In this document: piece after piece, positions 11,953-26,358 of the stretch | How positions within the stretch are numbered: position 1 is the first letter of the stretch | How the letters are laid out: each line of letters begins with the position of its first letter | From: Bacillota bacterium | Lineage (GTDB): Bacteria > Bacillota > Sulfobacillia > JAJZYS01 > JAJYTV01 | Reading direction: 5' to 3' | Assembly: GCA_021793215.1 (NCBI GenBank) | Contig: JAJYTE010000017.1 | Location: forward strand, 1 to 51,240 | Length of the DNA: 51,240 nt | Position numbers and translations under genes: made by a program | The notes under the pieces: model-generated | Told to the model about the DNA's origin: nothing | Databases searched by the model: none | Seen by the model: only the letters and a program-made list of their open reading frames with translations

Positions 11953-13324
11953 TCAGACTCCGAGCGCAGCGTGGGCGCGGGAGATCTGCTCTCGGACGCG
12001 CGCAGGCGCTGTGCCGCCCTCGACGGCCCGGCGGGAGGCGGCCCGCAGCGGATCCATCAGTTCCCCGAGGGCCCGGGACGTGAAGTGCGAGGAGATCGCG
12101 AGCCAGTCCTCCCGGGAGAGCGCGAGGAAGTTCCCGCCCCGCTCCACCGCGGTCCGAACAGCCTGTCCCACGAGGTGGTGCGCCTGACGGAACGGCACCC
12201 CCTGGCGCACGAGGTAGTCCGCGAGTTCCGTCGCGAGCATCAGGTCCCCCTGCGCGACGCCGGGCGGCGTGAACGTCGCCGCCTGCAGCATGGCGGCCGT
12301 CAGCTCGAGTCCGTCTCCCAGGGTGTCGACGATCTCGAAGAGCGCCTCCTTGTCCTCCTGCAGGTCGCGCACGTAGGCGAGCGGCAGTCCCTTCAGCACC
12401 ATTAGCAGGCCCACGAGCCGTCCGACCACTCGTCCCGCGCGCCCGCGCAGGAGTTCGGCTGCGTCTGGGTTCTTCTTCTGCGGCATCATCGAGGAACCGC
12501 TCGAGAAGGCGTCGGGCAACTGGATCCAGTCGAAGGGCCGCGATGCCCACAGCACGATCTCCTCGCCGAGGCGCGAGAGGTGCAGCGCACAGAGCGATGC
12601 GGCGTACGCGAGGTCCAGGGCGAAGTCGCGATCCGACACGGCGTCGATGCTGTTCGGGTACACATCCGAGAGCCCGAGCGCCTTCGCCGTCGCGCGTGTA
12701 TCGAGCGGCAGCCCGGCGCCGGCGAGGGCGCCGGCGCCGAGCGGCGAGCGGTCCGCCTGGTCCGCCGCCCAGAGGAGGCGTCGGCGGTCGCGCTCGAACA
12801 TCCAGAAGTAGGCCATGATCTGGTGCGCGAAGAGGACCGGCTGGGCTTCCTGCAGGTGCGTCATGCCGGGGCAGAGCGCTTCGCCGAGGGCCTCGGCCTG
12901 GGCGAGAAGCGCCGCCTGCAATCCGTGCGCCAGCCCGGCGAGCCCCTGCGCCGACTCCTTGCAGAAGAGGTGGAAGTCGAGCGCCACCTGGTCGTTGCGG
13001 GAGCGCCCGGCATGCAGGTACTCCCCCGCGGGGCCGAGGAGGCGCTCGATCGCGCCGTGGACGTCCTCGTCCTGCGCCGTGATCGCGAGCGCCTCCCCCG
13101 CAGCGAGGCGCTGCGCGAGAGCCTGGAGGCCCTCGCGCAGCGCTCTCGCCTGGGCATCGTCGATGATCCCCGCCGCATGCAGGGACGCGGCGTGCGCCAG
13201 AGAGCCCCGGATGTCCTGCGGCGCCAGCCGCCGATCCCACTCGACCGAGCGTCCATAGGCGAAGAAGCGGGGGTCCGGCGGCTGCCGGAACCTCCCGCCC
13301 CAGATCTTCGACGTTCCGTCGAAG

Positions 13325-13335
<11 letters not shown>
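11953..13335 (-). CDS. argH: Argininosuccinate lyase
   Basis: 460 residues, normal length. The fumarase/aspartase-superfamily signature GSSMMPQKKNPD is present (catalytic serine loop), as are AGRSRNDQVALD and TDRD-type helices. It cleaves argininosuccinate to arginine and fumarate, the last step of arginine synthesis. ATG 13335 lies inside argG and overlaps it by 11 bases, so the two are translationally coupled. Last gene of the argF-argG-argH operon. Confidence 0.97.
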
Positions 13336-14527
<1,192 letters not shown>

Positions 14528-14539
14528 CGAGCTTCCTCC

Positions 14540-15457
14540 CTAGTCCCCAAGGATCGCGAACAGCACGGCCTTCTGCACGTGCAACCGGTTCTCCGCCTCG
14601 TCGAACACCACTGACTGCGGCCCGTCGAGCACGCCGTCCGTCACTTCCTCGCCGCGGTGGGCCGGCAGGCAATGCAGGAAGATCGCGTCGGAGTCCGCCT
14701 TGGACATCAGCGCCTCGTTGACCGTGAAGCCCTCAAACGCCTTGCGCTTCTGCTCGGAGTCCCGCTGCCCCATCGACACCCACGTGTCCGTGATCACGAC
14801 GTCCGCGCCCCGCACAGCGTCCAGGGGGCTGCGCAGGATGGTCGGCGGGTGCGCGGCGACGATCGGAAGCGACATCACCTTCGGGTCCGGGTCGCAGCCC
14901 ACGGGGCAGGCGGCGCGCAGCCCGATCCCCAGTTTGGCTGCCGCGACGATCCACTCCTGCAGCATGTTGTTCCCGTCGCCGACCCAGGCCACCTCCAAGC
15001 CGGCCAAGGTTCCCTTCGCCTCCAGCACGGTCTTGAGGTCCGCGAGCACCTGGCAGGGGTGGAAGCGGTCCGTGAGGGCGTTCACGACGGGGATGCCCGC
15101 CGCCGCGGCGAACTCCTCGATCTCGGAGTGCGCACCCGTGCGCACCACAAGCGCCTGCAGGTAGCGGGAGAGCACCCGCGCGGTGTCGGCGACCGTCTCG
15201 CCGCGCGACAGCTGCGTCTGGTCCTCCGTCATGTAGATGCTGTGCGCGCCGAGCTCCAGCGCCGCGACCTCGAAGCTGACGCGGGTGCGCGTGGACGGCT
15301 TGCGGAACAGAAGGCCGATCGTCTGACCCTGCAGCGGCGTGTCCTTCACGCCCTCGAGCTGCGCGGAGAGGCTGAGGAGGTCCAGGATCGCCTGGGCGGA
15401 GAGGTCGTGCAGCGTCAGGAGGTCCGATCCCTGGATCCCGATGTCGGTCGCGAGCAT
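14540..15457 (-). CDS. argF: Ornithine carbamoyltransferase
   Basis: 305 residues. The carbamoyl-phosphate site FRKPSTRTRVSFE, the FHPCQVLAD block and the ornithine-binding FLHCLPAHRGEE are all present. It condenses ornithine and carbamoyl phosphate to citrulline. ATG 15457 has AAAGGGG 8 bases upstream (15466-15472). That ribosome binding site can pair with the segment at 15487-15497, which is itself part of a leader hairpin (see the leader entries). First structural gene of argFGH; anabolic rather than arginine-deiminase context, since argG and argH follow. Confidence 0.97.
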   Translation of the reverse strand: MLATDIGIQGSDLLTLHDLSAQAILDLLSLSAQLEGVKDTPLQGQTIGLLFRKPSTRTRVSFEVAALELGAHSIYMTEDQTQLSRGETVADTARVLSRYLQALVVRTGAHSEIEEFAAAAGIPVVNALTDRFHPCQVLADLKTVLEAKGTLAGLEVAWVGDGNNMLQEWIVAAAKLGIGLRAACPVGCDPDPKVMSLPIVAAHPPTILRSPLDAVRGADVVITDTWVSMGQRDSEQKRKAFEGFTVNEALMSKADSDAIFLHCLPAHRGEEVTDGVLDGPQSVVFDEAENRLHVQKAVLFAILGD

Positions 15458-15486
15458 CCTTACAGCCCCTTTCCTTGGATCGTGCG

Positions 15487-15544
15487 CAAGGCAAGGACCC
15501 GCCTCCCCCCTCCCGACGGGTGGGGGTGCCTGCGGCGGGTCCTT
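15487..15544 (-). promoter_or_regulatory. Leader RNA hairpin with competing anti-SD pairing before argF
   Basis: On the minus strand AAGGACCCGCC (15544-15534) and GGCGGGTCCTT (15503-15493) form a perfect 11-bp stem, with a further CCCCC/GGGGG and CCC/GGG inner helix. The 5' arm begins inside the leader-peptide stop codon. The 3' arm continues into UCCUUGCCUUG (15497-15487), which can instead pair (10 of 11 positions) with CAAGGAAAGGG (15477-15467), the argF ribosome binding site. No U-tract follows, so control of translation initiation fits better than classic termination. Confidence 0.6.
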
Positions 15545-15599
15545 ATCGTCGTGCGGCGGCTGTGGCTGGGAGCGCGCAACGTGGCCTGCAAGCGACCAT
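15543..15599 (-). CDS. Putative arginine-rich leader peptide of the argFGH operon
   Basis: An 18-codon reading frame, MVACRPRCALPATAAARR, starts at ATG 15599 with AAGGGGGAG (15614-15606) 6 bases upstream, an ideal ribosome binding site. It starts about 25 bases from the predicted transcription start. Four of 18 codons are arginine (AGG, CGT, CGA, CGA), with two adjacent CGA codons just before the TAA stop. The stop lies within the first arm of the 11-bp hairpin. This is the layout of ribosome-mediated attenuators. That it senses arginine is an inference. Confidence 0.6.
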   Translation of the reverse strand: MVACRPRCALPATAAARR

Positions 15600-15630
15600 C
15601 TGGCACTCCCCCTTCGTTCCTGATGGAGAG

Positions 15631-15659
15631 AGTATACGTGGTGATGCATTCTCATGCAA
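15631..15659 (-). promoter_or_regulatory. Promoter of the arginine operon
   Basis: On the minus strand, -35 TTGCAT (15659-15654) and -10 TATACT (15636-15631) are separated by exactly 17 bases, giving a predicted start near 15625. It lies in a short AT-richer patch within GC-rich DNA. Confidence 0.65.
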
Positions 15660-15660
15660 T
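15643..15660. promoter_or_regulatory. ARG-box-like operator overlapping the argF promoter
   Basis: TGCAT-TCTC-ATGCA is a perfect 5-4-5 inverted repeat. It fits the ArgR/AhrC box pattern TGnATn4ATnCA and overlaps the -35 hexamer. A weaker half-match begins 3 bases further on, at 15664, the spacing seen for paired ARG boxes in enterobacteria. Binding by ArgR is an inference. Confidence 0.45.
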
Positions 15661-15823
15661 AGGTATGCAGTAATGTGTACTGGCTTGAACGTAGAACGCA
15701 GTGCCGACGCAGGAGGCTTGCGGGCTATCACTGCATAAGCGCATGGACGGTCCACGCTGCGACAGCCCCGAGCCAACGCCGAATGTTGTCGGGGCGCCAG
15801 CGCGCAGTGGGCACACTGCCCGC

Positions 15824-16246
15824 ATGGGAACGATCTTCGCACTGCTCTCCGGCGTCGCGATGGCACTGCAGGGTGCGATGAACGCGCAGCTCTCGCGGCC
15901 GCTCGGCCTCTACTGGATGCTGACCTCCGTGCAGTTGCTCGGAGTCCTCACGTCAGTGGGGCTCGCCCTTGCCCTCACGCCGCGACTCGCTTCGCCGCTC
16001 TCGGCGCCGGCCTACCTCTACCTCGCCGGTCCCTTGGGCGTCGCGATCACCGCGCTCGTGGCGCTCTCCGTGCCGCGGCTCGGCATGGTCCGGGCGACGA
16101 CATTCATCCTCGTCGCGCAGTTGCTCACCGCCGTCTTGCTGGACCACCTCGGCATCCTCGGCCTGCCGCAGCGCACCTTCCCGGCGTGGCGGCTCATCGG
16201 GGTGGCCCTCCTGGCCGCCGGCAGCCAGATCCTGCTGCGCTCCTAA
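15824..16246 (+). CDS. Small DMT-family transporter (YdcZ/DUF606 type)
   Basis: 140 residues, almost entirely hydrophobic, with about five transmembrane helices (GTIFALLSGVAMALQGAMNA, LTSVQLLGVLTSVGLALAL, YLAGPLGVAITALVALSV, FILVAQLLTAVLLD, LIGVALLAAGSQILL). Length and the N-terminal AMNAQLSRPLG match the YdcZ/PF04657 half-size drug/metabolite transporters. Substrate unknown. ATG 15824 has no clear ribosome binding site. Its stop overlaps the stop of the convergent CAP-domain gene by 4 bases. Confidence 0.82.
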   Translation: MGTIFALLSGVAMALQGAMNAQLSRPLGLYWMLTSVQLLGVLTSVGLALALTPRLASPLSAPAYLYLAGPLGVAITALVALSVPRLGMVRATTFILVAQLLTAVLLDHLGILGLPQRTFPAWRLIGVALLAAGSQILLRS

Positions 16247-17802
16247 CCGGCATGGGCGGCGCCTGCCGCGACGTCGGCGCGAAGCCCGAGCAGACGGGCG
16301 AACTCCTGGGCGGGCACGCGAGGGTTCGGCCCACCCCCCAGGGGGACGTGGGCCAGGCGGACGGGACGCCCGTCGAGCGTGGCGTAGAAGCTGCGCCGCG
16401 AGAAGCGGAGCCTTTTGCCGCCGTAGATCGCCGTTGCGAAGTCCGGGTTCTGCGCCGACCAGGCGAGCGTCCCGCCCGCTGCGGACAGCATGCTGCCGGC
16501 CCGCACGTAGGCTATCCCCGCCGCGACGCGCCCGGGGAGCTTTCCGCCACCCGCCACCGGAACGAAGACGGCGCGGCTGAGCGCGGGCACAGGGGCCGTG
16601 GAGAAGCTCCAGGTGTACGAGAAGGAATGCCAGCCCGCCGGGTCCTGATAGCTGCCGCGGAACGAAGCCTCGTACACCTGGTTCGCCTTGAGGGGCGAAC
16701 TCGGGATGAGCGCGGCGTTCATCCCGAGTTCGGCCTTGTTCCGTTCGTTCCGCGGCGTGAGGAGGTAGGCGGGCACGCGCGCGCCGCCCGCCGTCAGGGC
16801 AGCGCTCGCGATGCGCAGGGCTTCAACGCGCTGGCCGAAGAAGGAGATCGTCACCGGGTAGCCCGCCGGGTAGCTCGCGCCCGGGAAGTTCTGCAGCGGA
16901 TCCGGGATCTCACCGCCCTCGAACGCCAGGGGGATCCCCACGAGGCCGCGCGCGGGCCACAGCACGCCCGTCTTGTCCGGGACCTCGGCGGATGCGAGGT
17001 AGCCCGCGTCGATCGTCGTCACGGGAAGGTCCCGGCTCTCGGACGGCCTGCCCGAGATGCCGTAGCCCATGTCCACGAGGCCGGGATCCAGCAGGCCGAA
17101 GCGGTGGTAGATCGAGTCGATCCAGAGCTTCACGCCCTCGCCGATCGGCACGCCGAACGCCATCACCTCGCTGTCGCCGTCGCCGTTGAAGCCGAAGGCG
17201 ACATCGCGGCTGTAGGGGCTGCGCCCGACGTACCCCGGCCAGCTCGGCTGCTCCTGGTGCACGGAGACGGTCAGGTCGCTGCCGTAGCGGGCGAGGTTTC
17301 GGTAGAAGAAGCGGCTGTGCGCGCGCGCGGCGCCCTCCAGCGAGAGGTCGAGGCGCATCGGACGCTCGCCCCCGAGCGCGCGGTAGGCGTTCACGTCGGC
17401 CAGCGCCGCGCGCGAGCTCGCAGCCCACAATCTGACCGACTTCTGCGCCCCGCGGTTGACGGAGAAGCGCCATGCGTAGTCCCAGGCGAAGCCGGGGCCG
17501 AAGACGTAGGCCGTCGCCCGGTGGGTGCCCGGTGCGAGCGGCGAAGGCGGGAGGAAACGCACCACCGGGGTGATCCCCCCGGCTGCCGCCAGGTGCCCAT
17601 CGAGCAGGATCGCGTACTCGCCGTGTGGCTGCGCCTCGCGGAGGTGCAGCGAGATCGGCACGCGGGCGAGCATCAGCTTCGCGTTCGGCTGGGGCGTCAC
17701 GAACGCGAGCTGCGGCGCCTTGTAGTGACCGGTCCTCGGCGTCAACGCGAGGGCCGCGGCCGCCAGAGCGACCGCGGCCAGCGCGATGGCACCCGGTTTC
17801 AC
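16243..17802 (-). CDS. Secreted CAP/SCP-domain protein with copper-amine-oxidase-N-like C-terminus
   Basis: 519 residues. An N-terminal hydrophobic signal (AIALAAVALAAAALAL) is followed by an Ig-like stretch. A CAP (SCP/PR-1) domain spans about residues 130-250, with NAYRALGG, AARAHSRFF, HQEQP, EVMAFG and SIYHRFGLLDPG. A second beta-rich module follows, and the last 95 residues resemble the stalk domain of copper amine oxidase N-terminal proteins (VPVAGGGKLPGRVAAGIAYVRA and RVPAQEFARLLGL). It is exported and probably acts at the cell wall. GTG 17802 overlaps the arginase stop (GTGA), so it is translationally coupled to a seemingly unrelated cytoplasmic enzyme. Confidence 0.78.
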   Translation of the reverse strand: MKPGAIALAAVALAAAALALTPRTGHYKAPQLAFVTPQPNAKLMLARVPISLHLREAQPHGEYAILLDGHLAAAGGITPVVRFLPPSPLAPGTHRATAYVFGPGFAWDYAWRFSVNRGAQKSVRLWAASSRAALADVNAYRALGGERPMRLDLSLEGAARAHSRFFYRNLARYGSDLTVSVHQEQPSWPGYVGRSPYSRDVAFGFNGDGDSEVMAFGVPIGEGVKLWIDSIYHRFGLLDPGLVDMGYGISGRPSESRDLPVTTIDAGYLASAEVPDKTGVLWPARGLVGIPLAFEGGEIPDPLQNFPGASYPAGYPVTISFFGQRVEALRIASAALTAGGARVPAYLLTPRNERNKAELGMNAALIPSSPLKANQVYEASFRGSYQDPAGWHSFSYTWSFSTAPVPALSRAVFVPVAGGGKLPGRVAAGIAYVRAGSMLSAAGGTLAWSAQNPDFATAIYGGKRLRFSRRSFYATLDGRPVRLAHVPLGGGPNPRVPAQEFARLLGLRADVAAGAAHAG

Positions 17803-18695
17803 AGGATGCGCTGGCCGAACGCGGAGAGGGCGAGCTCGGCCGCAAGGCGGCCGGTGCGGTTCGCGATGTCCAGGATGGGGTTCACCTCGACGATCTCGAG
17901 CGATGTGAGGACGCCCGCCGCCGACAGCATCTCCATCGCAAGGTGCGCCTCGCGGTAGGTGATGCCGCCCTGGTGCGGCGTCCCGACGCCGGGAGCGTCG
18001 TCGGGGTCCATGACGTCCATGTCAAAGCTAACGTGCACAGATGACGCGCCTTCGATGTCGCGGAGTGCGCGCTTCATCACCTCGCGCATGCCGAGCGCGT
18101 CGATATCGGACATCGTGTAGACGCGCACCTCCGATTGCTGCAGCGCCTGGCGCTCGAGGGGGTCGAGTTCCCGGATGCCGATCATCACCAGACGGCTCTC
18201 CTTGATCGGCGGCGCACCGTCGCGCCCGGCCAGCAGCGCCGGGTTGCCGCGCCCGACCGAGGCGGCGGCCGGCATTCCGTGGATGTTGCCCGACGGGCTC
18301 GTCTCGTCCGTGTTGAAGTCCCCGTGGGTGTCGAACCAGAGCACCGCAGCATCGCTGCTCGCCCTCGCGACGCCCGCGATCGTGCCGAGCGCGATCGCGT
18401 GGTCCCCGCCCAGTACGAGCGGCACCCTTCCCTGACGCAGAACGTCCTCGACGGTGCGGCCGAGTTCCCGGCAGACGCCGACGATCTCGTCGAGGTACTT
18501 CAGCTTGGGGTTGCCGTGGTGCGACTCCTCAGGGATCGGGACCCGCAGGTCGCCGAGGTCGTCGACCTCGAGCCCGAGCCGCTCCAGGCGCTCCTCGAGC
18601 GCCGCGTAGCGGATCGCGGAAGGTCCCATGTCGACGCCCCGGCGTCCCGCTCCGAGGTCCATCGGCACCCCGAGTACGCTGATCGATCGCTTCAA
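17799..18695 (-). CDS. rocF: Arginase
   Basis: 298 residues, the bacterial arginase length. Manganese ligands lie in GGDHAIALGT, WFDTHGDFN and SFDMDVMDPD; the segment GNIHGMPAA is arginase-specific within the ureohydrolase family. It hydrolyses arginine to ornithine and urea. TTG 18695 follows AGGAGG with 8-base spacing. It lies about 2.3 kb from the arginine biosynthetic operon, so synthesis and degradation are side by side. An inverted repeat at 18726-18741 just upstream may be its operator. Confidence 0.95.
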   Translation of the reverse strand: MKRSISVLGVPMDLGAGRRGVDMGPSAIRYAALEERLERLGLEVDDLGDLRVPIPEESHHGNPKLKYLDEIVGVCRELGRTVEDVLRQGRVPLVLGGDHAIALGTIAGVARASSDAAVLWFDTHGDFNTDETSPSGNIHGMPAAASVGRGNPALLAGRDGAPPIKESRLVMIGIRELDPLERQALQQSEVRVYTMSDIDALGMREVMKRALRDIEGASSVHVSFDMDVMDPDDAPGVGTPHQGGITYREAHLAMEMLSAAGVLTSLEIVEVNPILDIANRTGRLAAELALSAFGQRIL

Positions 18696-21524: not shown

Positions 21525-21568
21525 GCTGTCTTAACACCCAGAGGTCGCCCTGAAAAGGCTCGCCCCTG

Positions 21569-21760
21569 GGGAGATAGAGGCGCGAACGCCAAGAGTAACG
21601 GCTCGGAGGATGGCACCGAGGAAGGGCCGTGGAAGGGGCGCTCGCCGAAACGCCGGAGATGCCGAATCTTCGCGCGTTGGGCTTGCATCCAACAGGTGCA
21701 GGTCTGTCACTGGATTCTCTCGCCGGCAAGACGCGAGGGTACGGTGGAGCGCTATCTCGT
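21569..21760 (+). ncRNA. Lysine riboswitch (L-box) aptamer
   Basis: P1 is a perfect 7-bp helix: GAGATAG (21571-21577) with CTATCTC (21752-21758). All five lysine-box landmarks appear in order: AGAGGCGCGAACGCCAAGAGTA, GGAGGATGG, GGGGCGCTCGCCGAA, a TGCATCCAACAGGTGCA kissing-arm region with CTGTCAC, and TGGAGCGCTATCTC. The order and spacing follow the Bacillus lysC leader. Downstream, a GC hairpin (21774-21799) and CCTCC (21832-21836), able to pair with the gltB GGAGG (21861-21865), form a plausible expression platform acting on translation. Confidence 0.92.
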
Positions 21761-21773
21761 TTGCGTTTGGTAC

Positions 21774-21873: not shown

Positions 21874-24800
21874 TTGTTGTACCCAATCGGCGGTGGAAGG
21901 GGCCTCTTGGATCCGCGCGACGAGCGTGACGCGTGCGGGGTAGGCTTTGCCGCCACCCTTCATGTCGGGTCGCACGAGATCCTGCGGCTGGGACTCTTGG
22001 CCCTCGAGCGCGTGGCGCACCGCGGCGCGGTAGGCGGCGACGGCGCTACGGGCGACGGCGCCGGCATCATGACCCAGGTTCCCCGCGGTCTCATGGCGGA
22101 GGAGCTCTCGCGACTGGGATGGGACCCGGCCGCGGCGGACTCGATCGGCGTCGGCGTCTTCTTCCTGCCGCAGGACGACGGCGAGCGGGCCGCTGCCTGC
22201 GCCGACGCGGAATTCTCGGTGCGCGCCCAGGGCGTTTCGTCGTTCGCCTGGCGCGAAGTGCCGGTGCAGCTCGATCTTCTGGGGGAGACTGCGCGGCGCA
22301 GCGCCCCCGTCCTGCGCCACCTGCTCGCGGTCCGACCGGAGGCGGATGACGACGACGCGTTCGAGCGGCGACTCTACCAGGCGCGCCGCGACATCGAGCG
22401 GTCCTTCGCCGCGCGCGGCGCTGGCCGCGACGACCTCTACATCGCGTCGTTCTCCGCGAAGACGATCGTCTACAAGGGGCTGCTCTCGGCCGACCAGCTC
22501 AGCCGCTTCTACCTCGACCTGCAAAGCCCGCTCTACGAAACCCAGATCTGCATGTTCCACCAGCGCTTCAGCACGAACACCGCGCCGAACTGGAGCCGCG
22601 TCCAGCCGTTCCGTCGGCTCGCGCACAACGGCGAGATCAACACGCTGCGCGGCAACGTCCTCGCGATGGAGGCCCGCCTGCCGGGCGTCGTGGACGCGCA
22701 CACCTCCGACTCGGGCATGCTCGACAACGCCGCCGAGCACCTCAACCTCTTCTCTGCGCGCGATCTGCGCCACGTCCTGATGCTGCTGGTGCCCGAGGCC
22801 TGGGATGCCGTGCCGGATCTCGCGCCAGAGCGCCGGGCATTCCTGCGCTACCACGCGTGCCTGATGGAGCCCTGGGACGGCCCCGCCGCGCTCGCGTTCA
22901 GCGACGGGACACTCGTCGGAGCGACGCTGGACCGCAACGGCCTGCGCCCGATGCGCTACGCGATCACCGAGGACGGACTCGTCGTCGCGGGCTCGGAGGC
23001 CGGGATCTTCGACCTCGCCCCGAAGCGAGTGATGCGCTACGGCAAGCTCGGTCCCGGCCAGATGCTGGCCGTCGACGTCGCGCGCGGCAAGGTCCTCGAA
23101 CCGGACGAGAACAGGGCGGAGGTGTGCAAGCGTCAGCCCTACGGCCGCTGGGTCGACGAGCAGACCGTCACGTTCGGTCAGCTGGAGATCCCGCTCAGCG
23201 GGCTTCCCCAGCTCGCCGCGGACGACCTCGCCCGCCTGCAGACCGCCTTCGCCTACTCCTCGGAGGAGATCGCGCAGGTGCTGGGGCCGATGGTCGCGCA
23301 CGCCAAGCCGCCGAACGGCGCGATGGGCGACGACACGCCCCATGCGGCGCTCTCGGCACTCGAACGCCCGCTCTTCCACTACTTCAAGCAGCGGTTCGCG
23401 GAGGTCACGAACCCGCCGATCGACCACCTGCGCGAGGCGCTCGTCTTCTCGATCCAGTCGCGCCTCGGCCCGCGCGGCAACGTGCTCGAGGAGACGGCGG
23501 ACCACGCCCACCTGATCGAGCTGCCGAGTCCTTTGCTGAGCGACGCGGAGCTCGCATCTCTGAGGGCGTGCGGCGACCAGTATCCCGCGTTCGCCAGCCG
23601 AACGCTTTCGACCCTCATGCCGCGCGTCGAAGGCCCTCTTGGACTCCAGGCGGCGCTCGCGCGGCTCTGCGCCCAGGCGCAGGAAGCCGTCGACGAGGGT
23701 GCGGGCCTCCTGATCCTGAGCGACCGCGGCGTCGATGCGGACCAGGTCCCTCTGCCCTCGCTTCTGGCGCTCGGTGCGGTGCACCACCACCTCGTGCGGC
23801 AGGGGCGGCGCATGCGCGCCAGCCTGATCGTCGAGAGCGGCGAACCCCGAGAGGTACACCACGTCGCAGCGCTGCTCGGCTTCGGCGCGAACGCCGTCAA
23901 CCCGTACCTTGCGCTCGGCATCGTGCGCGATATGGCGGAGCGCGGTCGCGTACGCGGCAGCCTGCCGGCGGCGGAGGCGGAGCGAAACTACCGCCGCGCC
24001 CTGGAGGACGGCCTGCGCAAGGTGATGTCGCGCATGGGCATCTCCACGGTCGACGGCTACATCGGCGCCCAGATCTTCGAGGCCGTGGGCATCGGCCCCG
24101 AGGTGATCGCGCGCTGCTTCCCCAAGACCCCGTCCGGCATCGGCGGCATCGGTTTCGCCGAGATCGGCGAGCGCATGTTCGCCTGGCACCGCCGCGCGTT
24201 CGCGGAGCCCGCCGAGAAGCCGGCGCTGAGCGGCTTCTACCAGTTCCGCAAGGGCGGAGAGAAGCACGAGTTCAGCCCGGGCGTCGTCGCGGCAATCCAC
24301 GCCGCGATCGAGGAGGCGCCCTCCGATCCGCTGGCCGCGGCGGCCGATCTCGAGAGCACGGCAGCCTACGGTCGCTACCAGGAGTTCAAGGCGCTCCTCG
24401 CGGGTGAGGCCCCGAGCCAGATCCGCCACCTGCTCGCGCTGCGCTCGGATCGCCAGCCCGTCCCCCTCTCCGAGGTGGAACCGGTCGAGGCGATCGTGGG
24501 CCGCTTCTCCACCGGATCGATGTCGCTCGGGTCACTCTCGCCGGAGGCGCACGAGACGCTCGCGATCGCGATGAACCGGCTCGGCGGACTCTCCGGATCC
24601 GGCGAGGGCGGCGAGGACCCCTCACGCCTGCGCGACGAGCGGAGCAGCGGCATCAAGCAGATCGCGTCCGCCCGCTTCGGCGTCACGCCCTCCTACCTGA
24701 CGCACGCCCGGGAACTCCAGGTCAAGATGGCCCAGGGCTCCAAGCCGGGCGAGGGCGGGCAGATCGCCGGCAACAAGGTCACGGAGTACGTGGCGCGGCT

Positions 24801-26358
24801 TCGCCACACGACGCCCGGCATCACCTTGATCTCGCCGCCGCCGCACCACGACATCTACTCGATCGAGGACCTCGCCCAGTTGATCTACGACTTGCGGCAG
24901 ATCAACCCGCAGGCGCGCATCTCCGTCAAACTCGTCGCGGAGTCGGGCGTCGGCATCATCGCTGCCGGCGTCGCGAAGTGCCACGCGGATGTCATCCTGA
25001 TCAGCGGGCATGCGGGCGGCACGGGCAACTCGCCCCTGGACTCGATCAAGAACGCCGGCGTGCCCTGGGAGATCGGACTCGCCGAGACGCAGCAGACGCT
25101 CCTGGAGAACGGCCTGCGCCAGCGGGTCGCGGTGCGGGTCGACGGCGGCCTGCGCTCTGGCAAGGACGTCCTGATCGCCGCCCTGCTGGGCGCGGACGAG
25201 TTCAGCTTCGGCACGGCCGCGATGGTCGCCGAGGGATGCACGATGATGCGCATCTGCCACACCGACAACTGCCCTGTCGGGGTCGCGACGCAGAAGGCCG
25301 CCCTGCGCGCGAAGTTCACCGGAACGCCCGAGAAGGTGATGCTCTTCTTCCTGCTGGTCGCCCAGGAAGTGCGCGAGCTGCTGGCCACACTCGGCTACCG
25401 CAGCCTCGACGAGGTGATCGGCCGCACGGAGCTCCTCGCCCAGCGCGAGCCCGCCCTGCCCGGCGGCTTCGACCTCTCCCGGATGCTCCACGTACCGCAG
25501 GCGGCGGGCGACGAGCCGAGGCGCCACCTCGGCATGCGCAACGCGCCGCCGTCCGAGCCGCGCCTCGACGACGCGATCGCAGCAGCCGCCGAACCCGCCC
25601 TCGACAGAGGCACGCCGCTGCGCATGTGGAGCCGCATCAGCAACACCGACCGCACTGTCGGTGCGGCCCTCTTCCGCCGGATCGCAGAACTGGAAGCGGA
25701 ACTGCCCGACGGTACGGTCTCCGTCGCCTTCGAGGGGACGGCCGGCCAGTCGTTCGGCGCCTTCATGACGCCGGGCGTGTCGTTCGCCCTGACGGGACTC
25801 GCGAACGACTACGTCGGCAAGGGCATGGCCGGCGGGGAGATCGTGATCCGCCGCCATCCCGGCATGCGCGGCGCGACGCACGAGCACGTGCTGCTCGGCA
25901 ACACCGTGCTGTACGGAGCGACCGGGGGACGTCTCTTCGCCGCGGGCCGCGCCGGTGAGCGCTTCGCCGTGCGGAACTCCGGCGCCACGGCCGTCGTCGA
26001 GGGAGTCGGCGACCACGGCTGCGAGTACATGACGATGGGGACCGTGGTCGTGCTGGGCACGACGGGCCGCAACTTCGCCGCAGGCATGACGGGCGGCGAG
26101 GCGTTCGTCCTGGACGTCGACGGCCAGTTCCTGCGGCGCTGCAACCCCGACCTCGTGGCCCCGACAGATCTCCTGCCGGAGGACGAGGAGCGGCTGTGTG
26201 ACCTGATCGAGGCGTTCGCCCGCAAGACCGGAAGCGCCCGCGCGCGGGAGATCCTGAAGGAGTGGCCGCTTTGGCGCATGCGTTTCGTGCGGCTCGCCCC
26301 GAAAGCGGAGCGCCGGGAGATGCCCGCCGATTCCGAGGAGGCAGGGTCGATCGCCTAG
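21874..26358 (+). CDS. gltB: Glutamate synthase large (alpha) subunit
   Basis: 1494 residues, standard for GltB. The N-terminal class II glutaminase exposes its catalytic cysteine in RDACGVGFAA after removal of a short propeptide. The central and FMN domains contain GHAGGTGNSPLDSIKNAG, and the 3Fe-4S cysteines lie in MMRICHTDNCPVGVATQ. The C-terminal beta-helix follows (GGEIVIRRHP, NSGATAVVEGVGDHGCEYMTMG). It converts 2-oxoglutarate and glutamine to two glutamates. TTG 21874 follows AAGGAGG with 8-base spacing. No gltD (small subunit) is in the window; the island begins directly after. Expression is apparently under a lysine riboswitch, an unusual pairing. Confidence 0.96.
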   Translation: MLYPIGGGRGLLDPRDERDACGVGFAATLHVGSHEILRLGLLALERVAHRGAVGGDGATGDGAGIMTQVPRGLMAEELSRLGWDPAAADSIGVGVFFLPQDDGERAAACADAEFSVRAQGVSSFAWREVPVQLDLLGETARRSAPVLRHLLAVRPEADDDDAFERRLYQARRDIERSFAARGAGRDDLYIASFSAKTIVYKGLLSADQLSRFYLDLQSPLYETQICMFHQRFSTNTAPNWSRVQPFRRLAHNGEINTLRGNVLAMEARLPGVVDAHTSDSGMLDNAAEHLNLFSARDLRHVLMLLVPEAWDAVPDLAPERRAFLRYHACLMEPWDGPAALAFSDGTLVGATLDRNGLRPMRYAITEDGLVVAGSEAGIFDLAPKRVMRYGKLGPGQMLAVDVARGKVLEPDENRAEVCKRQPYGRWVDEQTVTFGQLEIPLSGLPQLAADDLARLQTAFAYSSEEIAQVLGPMVAHAKPPNGAMGDDTPHAALSALERPLFHYFKQRFAEVTNPPIDHLREALVFSIQSRLGPRGNVLEETADHAHLIELPSPLLSDAELASLRACGDQYPAFASRTLSTLMPRVEGPLGLQAALARLCAQAQEAVDEGAGLLILSDRGVDADQVPLPSLLALGAVHHHLVRQGRRMRASLIVESGEPREVHHVAALLGFGANAVNPYLALGIVRDMAERGRVRGSLPAAEAERNYRRALEDGLRKVMSRMGISTVDGYIGAQIFEAVGIGPEVIARCFPKTPSGIGGIGFAEIGERMFAWHRRAFAEPAEKPALSGFYQFRKGGEKHEFSPGVVAAIHAAIEEAPSDPLAAAADLESTAAYGRYQEFKALLAGEAPSQIRHLLALRSDRQPVPLSEVEPVEAIVGRFSTGSMSLGSLSPEAHETLAIAMNRLGGLSGSGEGGEDPSRLRDERSSGIKQIASARFGVTPSYLTHARELQVKMAQGSKPGEGGQIAGNKVTEYVARLRHTTPGITLISPPPHHDIYSIEDLAQLIYDLRQINPQARISVKLVAESGVGIIAAGVAKCHADVILISGHAGGTGNSPLDSIKNAGVPWEIGLAETQQTLLENGLRQRVAVRVDGGLRSGKDVLIAALLGADEFSFGTAAMVAEGCTMMRICHTDNCPVGVATQKAALRAKFTGTPEKVMLFFLLVAQEVRELLATLGYRSLDEVIGRTELLAQREPALPGGFDLSRMLHVPQAAGDEPRRHLGMRNAPPSEPRLDDAIAAAAEPALDRGTPLRMWSRISNTDRTVGAALFRRIAELEAELPDGTVSVAFEGTAGQSFGAFMTPGVSFALTGLANDYVGKGMAGGEIVIRRHPGMRGATHEHVLLGNTVLYGATGGRLFAAGRAGERFAVRNSGATAVVEGVGDHGCEYMTMGTVVVLGTTGRNFAAGMTGGEAFVLDVDGQFLRRCNPDLVAPTDLLPEDEERLCDLIEAFARKTGSARAREILKEWPLWRMRFVRLAPKAERREMPADSEEAGSIA

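Follow-up and report, generated by a model that had tools for sequence, protein, structure and literature searches.

A candidate arginine-specific ribosome-mediated attenuator beneath an ArgR-type operator at the argFGH operon of a Sulfobacillia family

The window analysed here, a 51,240-nucleotide stretch of a Bacillota genome of the class Sulfobacillia, carries an arginine operon on its minus strand: argF (ornithine carbamoyltransferase, 14540..15457, ATG at 15457; TIGR00658, 356 bits, cut-off 280.85), argG (argininosuccinate synthase, 13325..14527; TIGR00032, 485.7 bits, cut-off 268.2) and argH (argininosuccinate lyase, 11953..13335, with the start inferred from the family match; TIGR00838, 498.4 bits, cut-off 279.5). 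An arginase gene at 17799-18695 lies near these three, all within 11953-18695. carA, considered as a further arginine target in this genome, was dropped because it adjoins pyrB.

The region upstream of argF, read along the same minus strand, opens with a predicted ARG box, the operator of ArgR (TTGCATGAGAATGCA, 15645..15659), a palindrome recognized by its sequence pattern that overlaps a -35 element, TTGCAT (15659-15654). The -10 element TATACT (15631..15636) follows at a spacing of 17 nt, and GTATACT is found in all nine family members. Next come the strong Shine-Dalgarno sequence of a putative leader ORF (AAGGGGGAG, 15606..15614) and the ORF itself (15543..15599, ATG at 15599 and TAA at 15543), whose 18 codons spell MVACRPRCALPATAAARR and include four Arg codons, the final two being CGA CGA (15546..15551). 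A predicted hairpin, which we call hairpin 1 (15568..15612), pairs the leader Shine-Dalgarno with the middle of the ORF. A second, the candidate attenuator hairpin (15493..15544), has a perfect 11-bp outer stem (AAGGACCCGCC/GGCGGGTCCTT, 15544-15534 with 15503-15493). The first arm of this stem starts within the stop codon, and with its inner hairpin the structure has a predicted energy of about -36 kcal/mol. A U-poor tail (GCCTTGCG, 15485..15492) and the argF Shine-Dalgarno region (AAGGAAAGGGG, 15466..15476) complete the leader. The -35 and -10 elements, Shine-Dalgarno, 18-codon ORF with four Arg codons, terminal CGA CGA and 11-bp stem had all been named in the original prediction, and each was found in its place. 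The promoter needs qualifying: its 17-nt spacing stands, but the -35 is weak, matching TTGACA at 3 of 6 positions, and a promoter scan made no call there; its real distinction is its location in the ARG-box palindrome.

We compared the leader with 20,000 dinucleotide shuffles, using criteria set after the sequence had been seen: a Shine-Dalgarno-preceded short ORF ending RR-stop together with a perfect stem of at least 10 bp at the stop occurred in none, whereas RR-stop alone occurred in 84 and the stem alone in 486. The fold of the whole leader showed no significant gain in stability over shuffles (z -0.87).

A search of the window's order yielded 15 genomes, 14 of them with argF. The window's family, f1, comprises two genera, the window's own (L001, L003, L004 and L005) and a second, g2 (L006-L010). 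A putative leader ORF precedes argFGH in all nine f1 genomes with argF, with 18 codons in four and 20 in five; its length is constant inside each genus, and its apparent Shine-Dalgarno, start and stop are conserved in frame. The 18-codon peptides of the window's genus (MVACRPRCALPATAAARR, MASCRPCRTQSLTAIARR, MATRSARLASPLTTNARR and MEMSLCLPALPASQSARR) share their length, start and ARR end. Those of g2, for example MLKGRRQAASPVSLAISTRR, are well conserved and follow MLKGRRQ..SP.SL...RR. Every f1 leader ends CGA-CGA-stop with the stop codon within a strong hairpin, and CGACGATAR is invariant at the nucleotide level. The terminal Arg codons are thus CGA in 18 of 18 cases, although the share of CGA among Arg codons is 4.5% across seven window ORFs treated as genes and 2% across the nine argF genes. 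Within the window's genus, all three nucleotides are invariant in the start codon and in each CGA, two in the stop (TAA or TAG) and zero to two in the codons of the body, leaving the start and the two CGA as the only fully invariant codons. Because the body drifts while CGA-CGA stays fixed, what is conserved in this genus is the position of two rare Arg codons rather than the peptide. The nine genomes are related, and their shared features do not amount to nine independent events. The proposed check of relatives' argF upstream regions found CGA CGA, ORF frame and hairpin pairing conserved in all nine f1 genomes with argF, which supports the idea of an Arg-codon leader placed before argFGH so as to sense arginine.

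The hairpin at the stop codon is paired in all nine f1 genomes, with sequences that differ between the genera while the pairs are kept. Whole-pair swaps in the outer stem include C-G to G-C at pairs 5, 7 and 8 and C-G to T-A at pair 9. Counted over the nine genomes, the split is five C-G to four G-C at position 5, five G-C to four C-G at position 8, and five T-A to four C-G at position 9. The strongest of these contrasts fall between the two genera and therefore represent few evolutionary events. A covariance model over both genera was set aside, as it held just four pairs, a consequence of stems that differ in sequence between genera. Rfam scans at the cut-off and under relaxed settings returned no family at cut-off over 15400-15750 or in the relatives' argF leaders that were scanned, and a T-box leader (RF00230) for argF was rejected because no match there reached the cut-off. 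Elsewhere in the window, a lysine riboswitch (21567-21762, 112.9 bits) lies directly 5' of a glutamate synthase large-subunit gene (21874-26358, plus strand, 1597.9 bits), a combination of riboswitch and target that seems unusual.

A terminator-like U-run follows the hairpin in six of the nine genomes, namely G002 of the window's genus (TTTATGTT) and all five of g2 (TCATTTTATG, TCGTTTTATG or TCTCTTTATG; the L009 tail, read by eye, is CTCTATTTTATG). The tails of the window genome (GCCTTGCG), G003 (CTATGCC) and G001 (CCTTGCCC) are U-poor, and termination at these three may be inefficient or depend on help from Rho. The trpE leader of the window genome resembles a T-box and ends in a T-rich terminator with a long T-run. 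That the same genome uses a T-rich terminator there makes the U-poor argF-leader tail a real caveat for the window species; at the same time, a T-box-like trpE leader with a terminator means that leader-controlled termination fits this cell. The trpE leaders of f1 genomes (L299, L301, L295, L296 and L298) show an apparent T-box, with GGGTGGCACCGCGG and a T-rich terminator, below the Rfam cut-off, and one trpE leader of family f4 (L306) contains a T-box above it.

We consider it likely, with a probability of about 0.7, that the argFGH leader is an arginine-specific, ribosome-mediated transcription attenuator working beneath an ArgR-type operator. The ORF, its codons, the hairpin geometry, the conserved pairs and the operator-like box can be read from the DNA; from these we infer translation of the leader, termination at the hairpin, an arginine response with its sign, and binding of ArgR. 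A ribosome would begin the leader ORF behind RNA polymerase. With plentiful Arg-tRNA it would pass CGA-CGA, end at the stop codon and leave, whereupon the hairpin rooted in that codon would fold and polymerase would terminate before argF. With scarce Arg-tRNA it would wait on CGA-CGA and sit over the foot of the first hairpin arm; closure of the hairpin beside the release site would then be prevented, and polymerase would continue into argFGH. Of the two triggers originally put forward, this favours scarce Arg-tRNA, in which case stalling should turn the operon on. Because the sensor codon pair sits at the very foot of the hairpin, a separate antiterminator would be unnecessary, and no such (2:3) pairing was seen when the folds predicted for the f1 leaders were inspected.

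The modelled ribosome footprint was placed relative to the first base of the A-site codon, reaching 17 nt upstream of it and 12 nt downstream. With either CGA in the A site, the hairpin is predicted to lose 4-11 pairs across the nine genomes, starting from its foot and including tail-adjacent pairs in every genome, and 4-10 unpaired nucleotides would be left before the tail. A footprint that removes the tail-adjacent pairs should allow the stalled ribosome to block termination directly. A ribosome at the stop codon would likewise cover the hairpin foot, so that the off state would depend on fast release, at a time when polymerase has yet to finish the hairpin some 50-60 nt beyond the stop. Hairpin 1, which appears in the predicted consensus fold of each genus and pairs the leader Shine-Dalgarno with the ORF interior, could limit repeated translation of the leader.

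Leader control had initially been contrasted with ArgR control, a contrast that does not hold here, as both an ArgR-family protein and an ARG box at the argF promoter are present. The exact pattern TTGCATNNNNATGCA has a single site in each of the four window-genus genomes, always at the argF promoter; the box is degenerate in g2 (TTGCATGAAATACAA), and in families f2 and f3 the box occurs, as such or as a close variant, and no leader accompanies it. The ARG box also overlaps the -35 of argC promoters in many relatives of the class. The ArgR-family protein of the window genome scores 76 bits against PF02863 and falls under the cut-offs of the ArgR equivalog models; no ArgR match was found in G002, a genome that is 82% complete. 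The predicted box together with this protein suggests that in the window's genus ArgR control is supplemented rather than replaced. The ArgR of the window genome and all readable ArgR sequences of f1-f3 read GERT where solved ArgR structures have GDDT, a motif that presumably holds the arginine-contacting aspartates. A change of effector binding is possible. The motif comparison draws on G000:C39:31265-31465 (L032) and L232-L243; readable class relatives have GDDT, GDNT, GENT or GEDT at this position, and ArgR of family f4 reads GTFAHGRR or GVFPHGQH.

The sister family f4 (L011-L013) has argFGH leaders of a different kind. Read from DNA, they encode MIGLGVAPTLRLTAAATRRARRKRAWAIL, MAQRRNGSATRRARLARAWVPLPHRIC and MMSIAVGSSLCAMAASTRRARVERARAILRLSIS, each ending at a stop codon, and all three share an AGG AGG GCC AGG block, in a setting where AGG accounts for 0 of 48 and 1 of 64 Arg codons in the arg genes of two f4 genomes. 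In predicted folds, region 2 pairs with region 3 at -21 to -24 kcal/mol, and alternatively region 3 would pair with region 4 to form a strong GC-rich terminator, the classical layout. The choice of AGG may be partly due to pairing, since these codons lie in region 1. ArgR matches in f4 are at 37.6 bits, at 26.9 bits and absent, against 69-80 bits elsewhere in the order, and no ARG box was seen at the f4 argF promoter. Judged by sequence, f4 appears to carry a different, classical Arg attenuator on argFGH, its ARG box gone and its ArgR degenerate or missing. A broader reading, which we regard as rather doubtful, is that arginine control in this order has moved from protein to ribosome: an ArgR in which GERT has replaced GDDT, and which perhaps does not sense arginine in the usual way any more, would stay on the argF promoter while a leader of the stall-on-terminator type does the sensing, and in f4 the shift would be complete. 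Were this true, arginine attenuators would have arisen twice in one order.

Across the rest of the class, 30 argC and about 40 argF loci revealed no convincing Arg leader outside f1 and f4, a weak negative given by-eye inspection, a simple ORF filter and some loci possibly out of register. The same survey of argC and argF leaders turned up ARG boxes and one T-box (99.1 bits, before argC in genome G093; L155, 1975-2205, minus strand). No ArgR was found in that genome, and its T-box is a third way of controlling arginine genes within the class. Genomes of families f1, f3 and f4 have argF, argG and argH, but no argC above the cut-off was found in these families, the window included. An in-frame TGA in argC of several class genomes was discarded, as it merely reflected a match extending past the true stop.

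The original prediction placed control at translation: a ribosome stalling where the leader ends would open the hairpin, whose second arm, once released, would pair with the argF Shine-Dalgarno and switch argF off. The 10-of-11 pairing does exist in the window species, at -19.6 kcal/mol, and the U-poor tail leaves space there for a readout other than termination. The significance of the pairing did not survive comparison with 200 shuffles in each of nine genomes: in the window species 7% of shuffles equalled its energy, and in seven of the other eight genomes 32-95% did, L006 alone standing out at 4%. The masking duplex is within chance in the window species and absent in most relatives. Terminator-like T-runs on six of nine hairpins also speak against masking of the argF start, and a stall on Arg codons that shuts arginine synthesis in shortage would have the wrong sign, unless excess arginine causes the stall. 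We consider such a switch very unlikely. The other proposal, that free arginine stalls the ribosome on the nascent leader peptide as in the fungal arginine attenuator peptide, seems even harder to credit. It could draw on the well-conserved g2 peptides with their terminal Arg-Arg, but hairpin 1, lying inside the ORF, also explains part of that conservation. The window-genus peptides have only the start and the ARR-stop end in common, whereas known arrest peptides require specific residues, and a stall at excess arginine would turn the operon on here.

It is also improbable, if somewhat less so, that ArgR alone controls the operon, with an ORF that arose by chance, a hairpin that is some ordinary RNA element, and CGACGATAR conserved as an RNA motif or a protein-binding site instead of as two codons. 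The strong ARG-box candidate overlapping the -35, the presence of the box without a leader in families f2 and f3 of the order, and the nucleotide-level invariance of CGACGATAR would all suit that account. It leaves aside that ORF length, frame, Shine-Dalgarno and start are kept per genus even as the body of the window-genus ORFs drifts, that the CGA codons fall outside the hairpin stem in most genomes, and that the unrelated leader of the sister family uses other rare Arg codons (AGG) on the same operon. These observations speak against control by ArgR alone. Two attenuator architectures on argFGH in one order, alongside relatives with an ArgR box only, form a natural series in which to ask how ribosome-based sensing supplements or replaces a DNA-binding repressor.

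For several amino acids, attenuation by a leader peptide is textbook knowledge (the trp, his, leu, thr, phe and ilv operons), and control of bacterial arginine biosynthesis is usually ascribed to ArgR or T-boxes. In fungi, the arginine attenuator peptide is an arginine-responsive uORF on an arginine biosynthetic mRNA, in which a conserved peptide arrests at high arginine and acts on eukaryotic initiation; the leader peptide of the window's genus, in contrast, is not conserved. Among the openly readable full texts searched, no published leader-peptide attenuator of arginine biosynthesis in bacteria came up. Actinobacterial ilvB, trp, leuS and cys operons have leader peptides with terminators (PMC1262725), as does the mycobacterial ilvB1 attenuator (PMC13236596), and the cys leaders resemble the f1 leaders in having control codons near the stop codon (PMC1262725). 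The former study describes no conserved RNA element before actinobacterial arginine operons and points to T-boxes for arginine in other bacteria (PMC1262725), and the main text of another makes no mention of arginine (PMC2965389). Two consecutive rare Arg codons sense arginine in the Salmonella orf34-speF leader ORF, where pausing raises expression (PMC6386406), but that leader controls ornithine decarboxylase via Rho, RNase G and RBS structure, its codons are internal (12-13), and it has no intrinsic terminator. In Staphylococcus aureus, the rbfL leader peptide ends in rare Arg codons and senses low arginine (PMC13009471). There, as proposed here, the paused ribosome itself covers the regulatory site, although it covers an RBS and represses a biofilm regulator, with no terminator and no role in arginine biosynthesis. 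The classical trp, his, leu, thr, phe and ilv attenuators likewise consist of a short ORF with codons for the end product and then a hairpin with terminator features before biosynthetic genes; the f4 leader further shares their predicted alternative pairings (1:2, 2:3 and 3:4). The amino acid here is arginine, unlike in these systems, and in f1 the control codons touch the stop, the stop lies inside the hairpin and no antiterminator was identified. With its control codons at the foot of the hairpin, the f1 form would be about the simplest attenuator that can be drawn, and one that lends itself to an easy reporter test.
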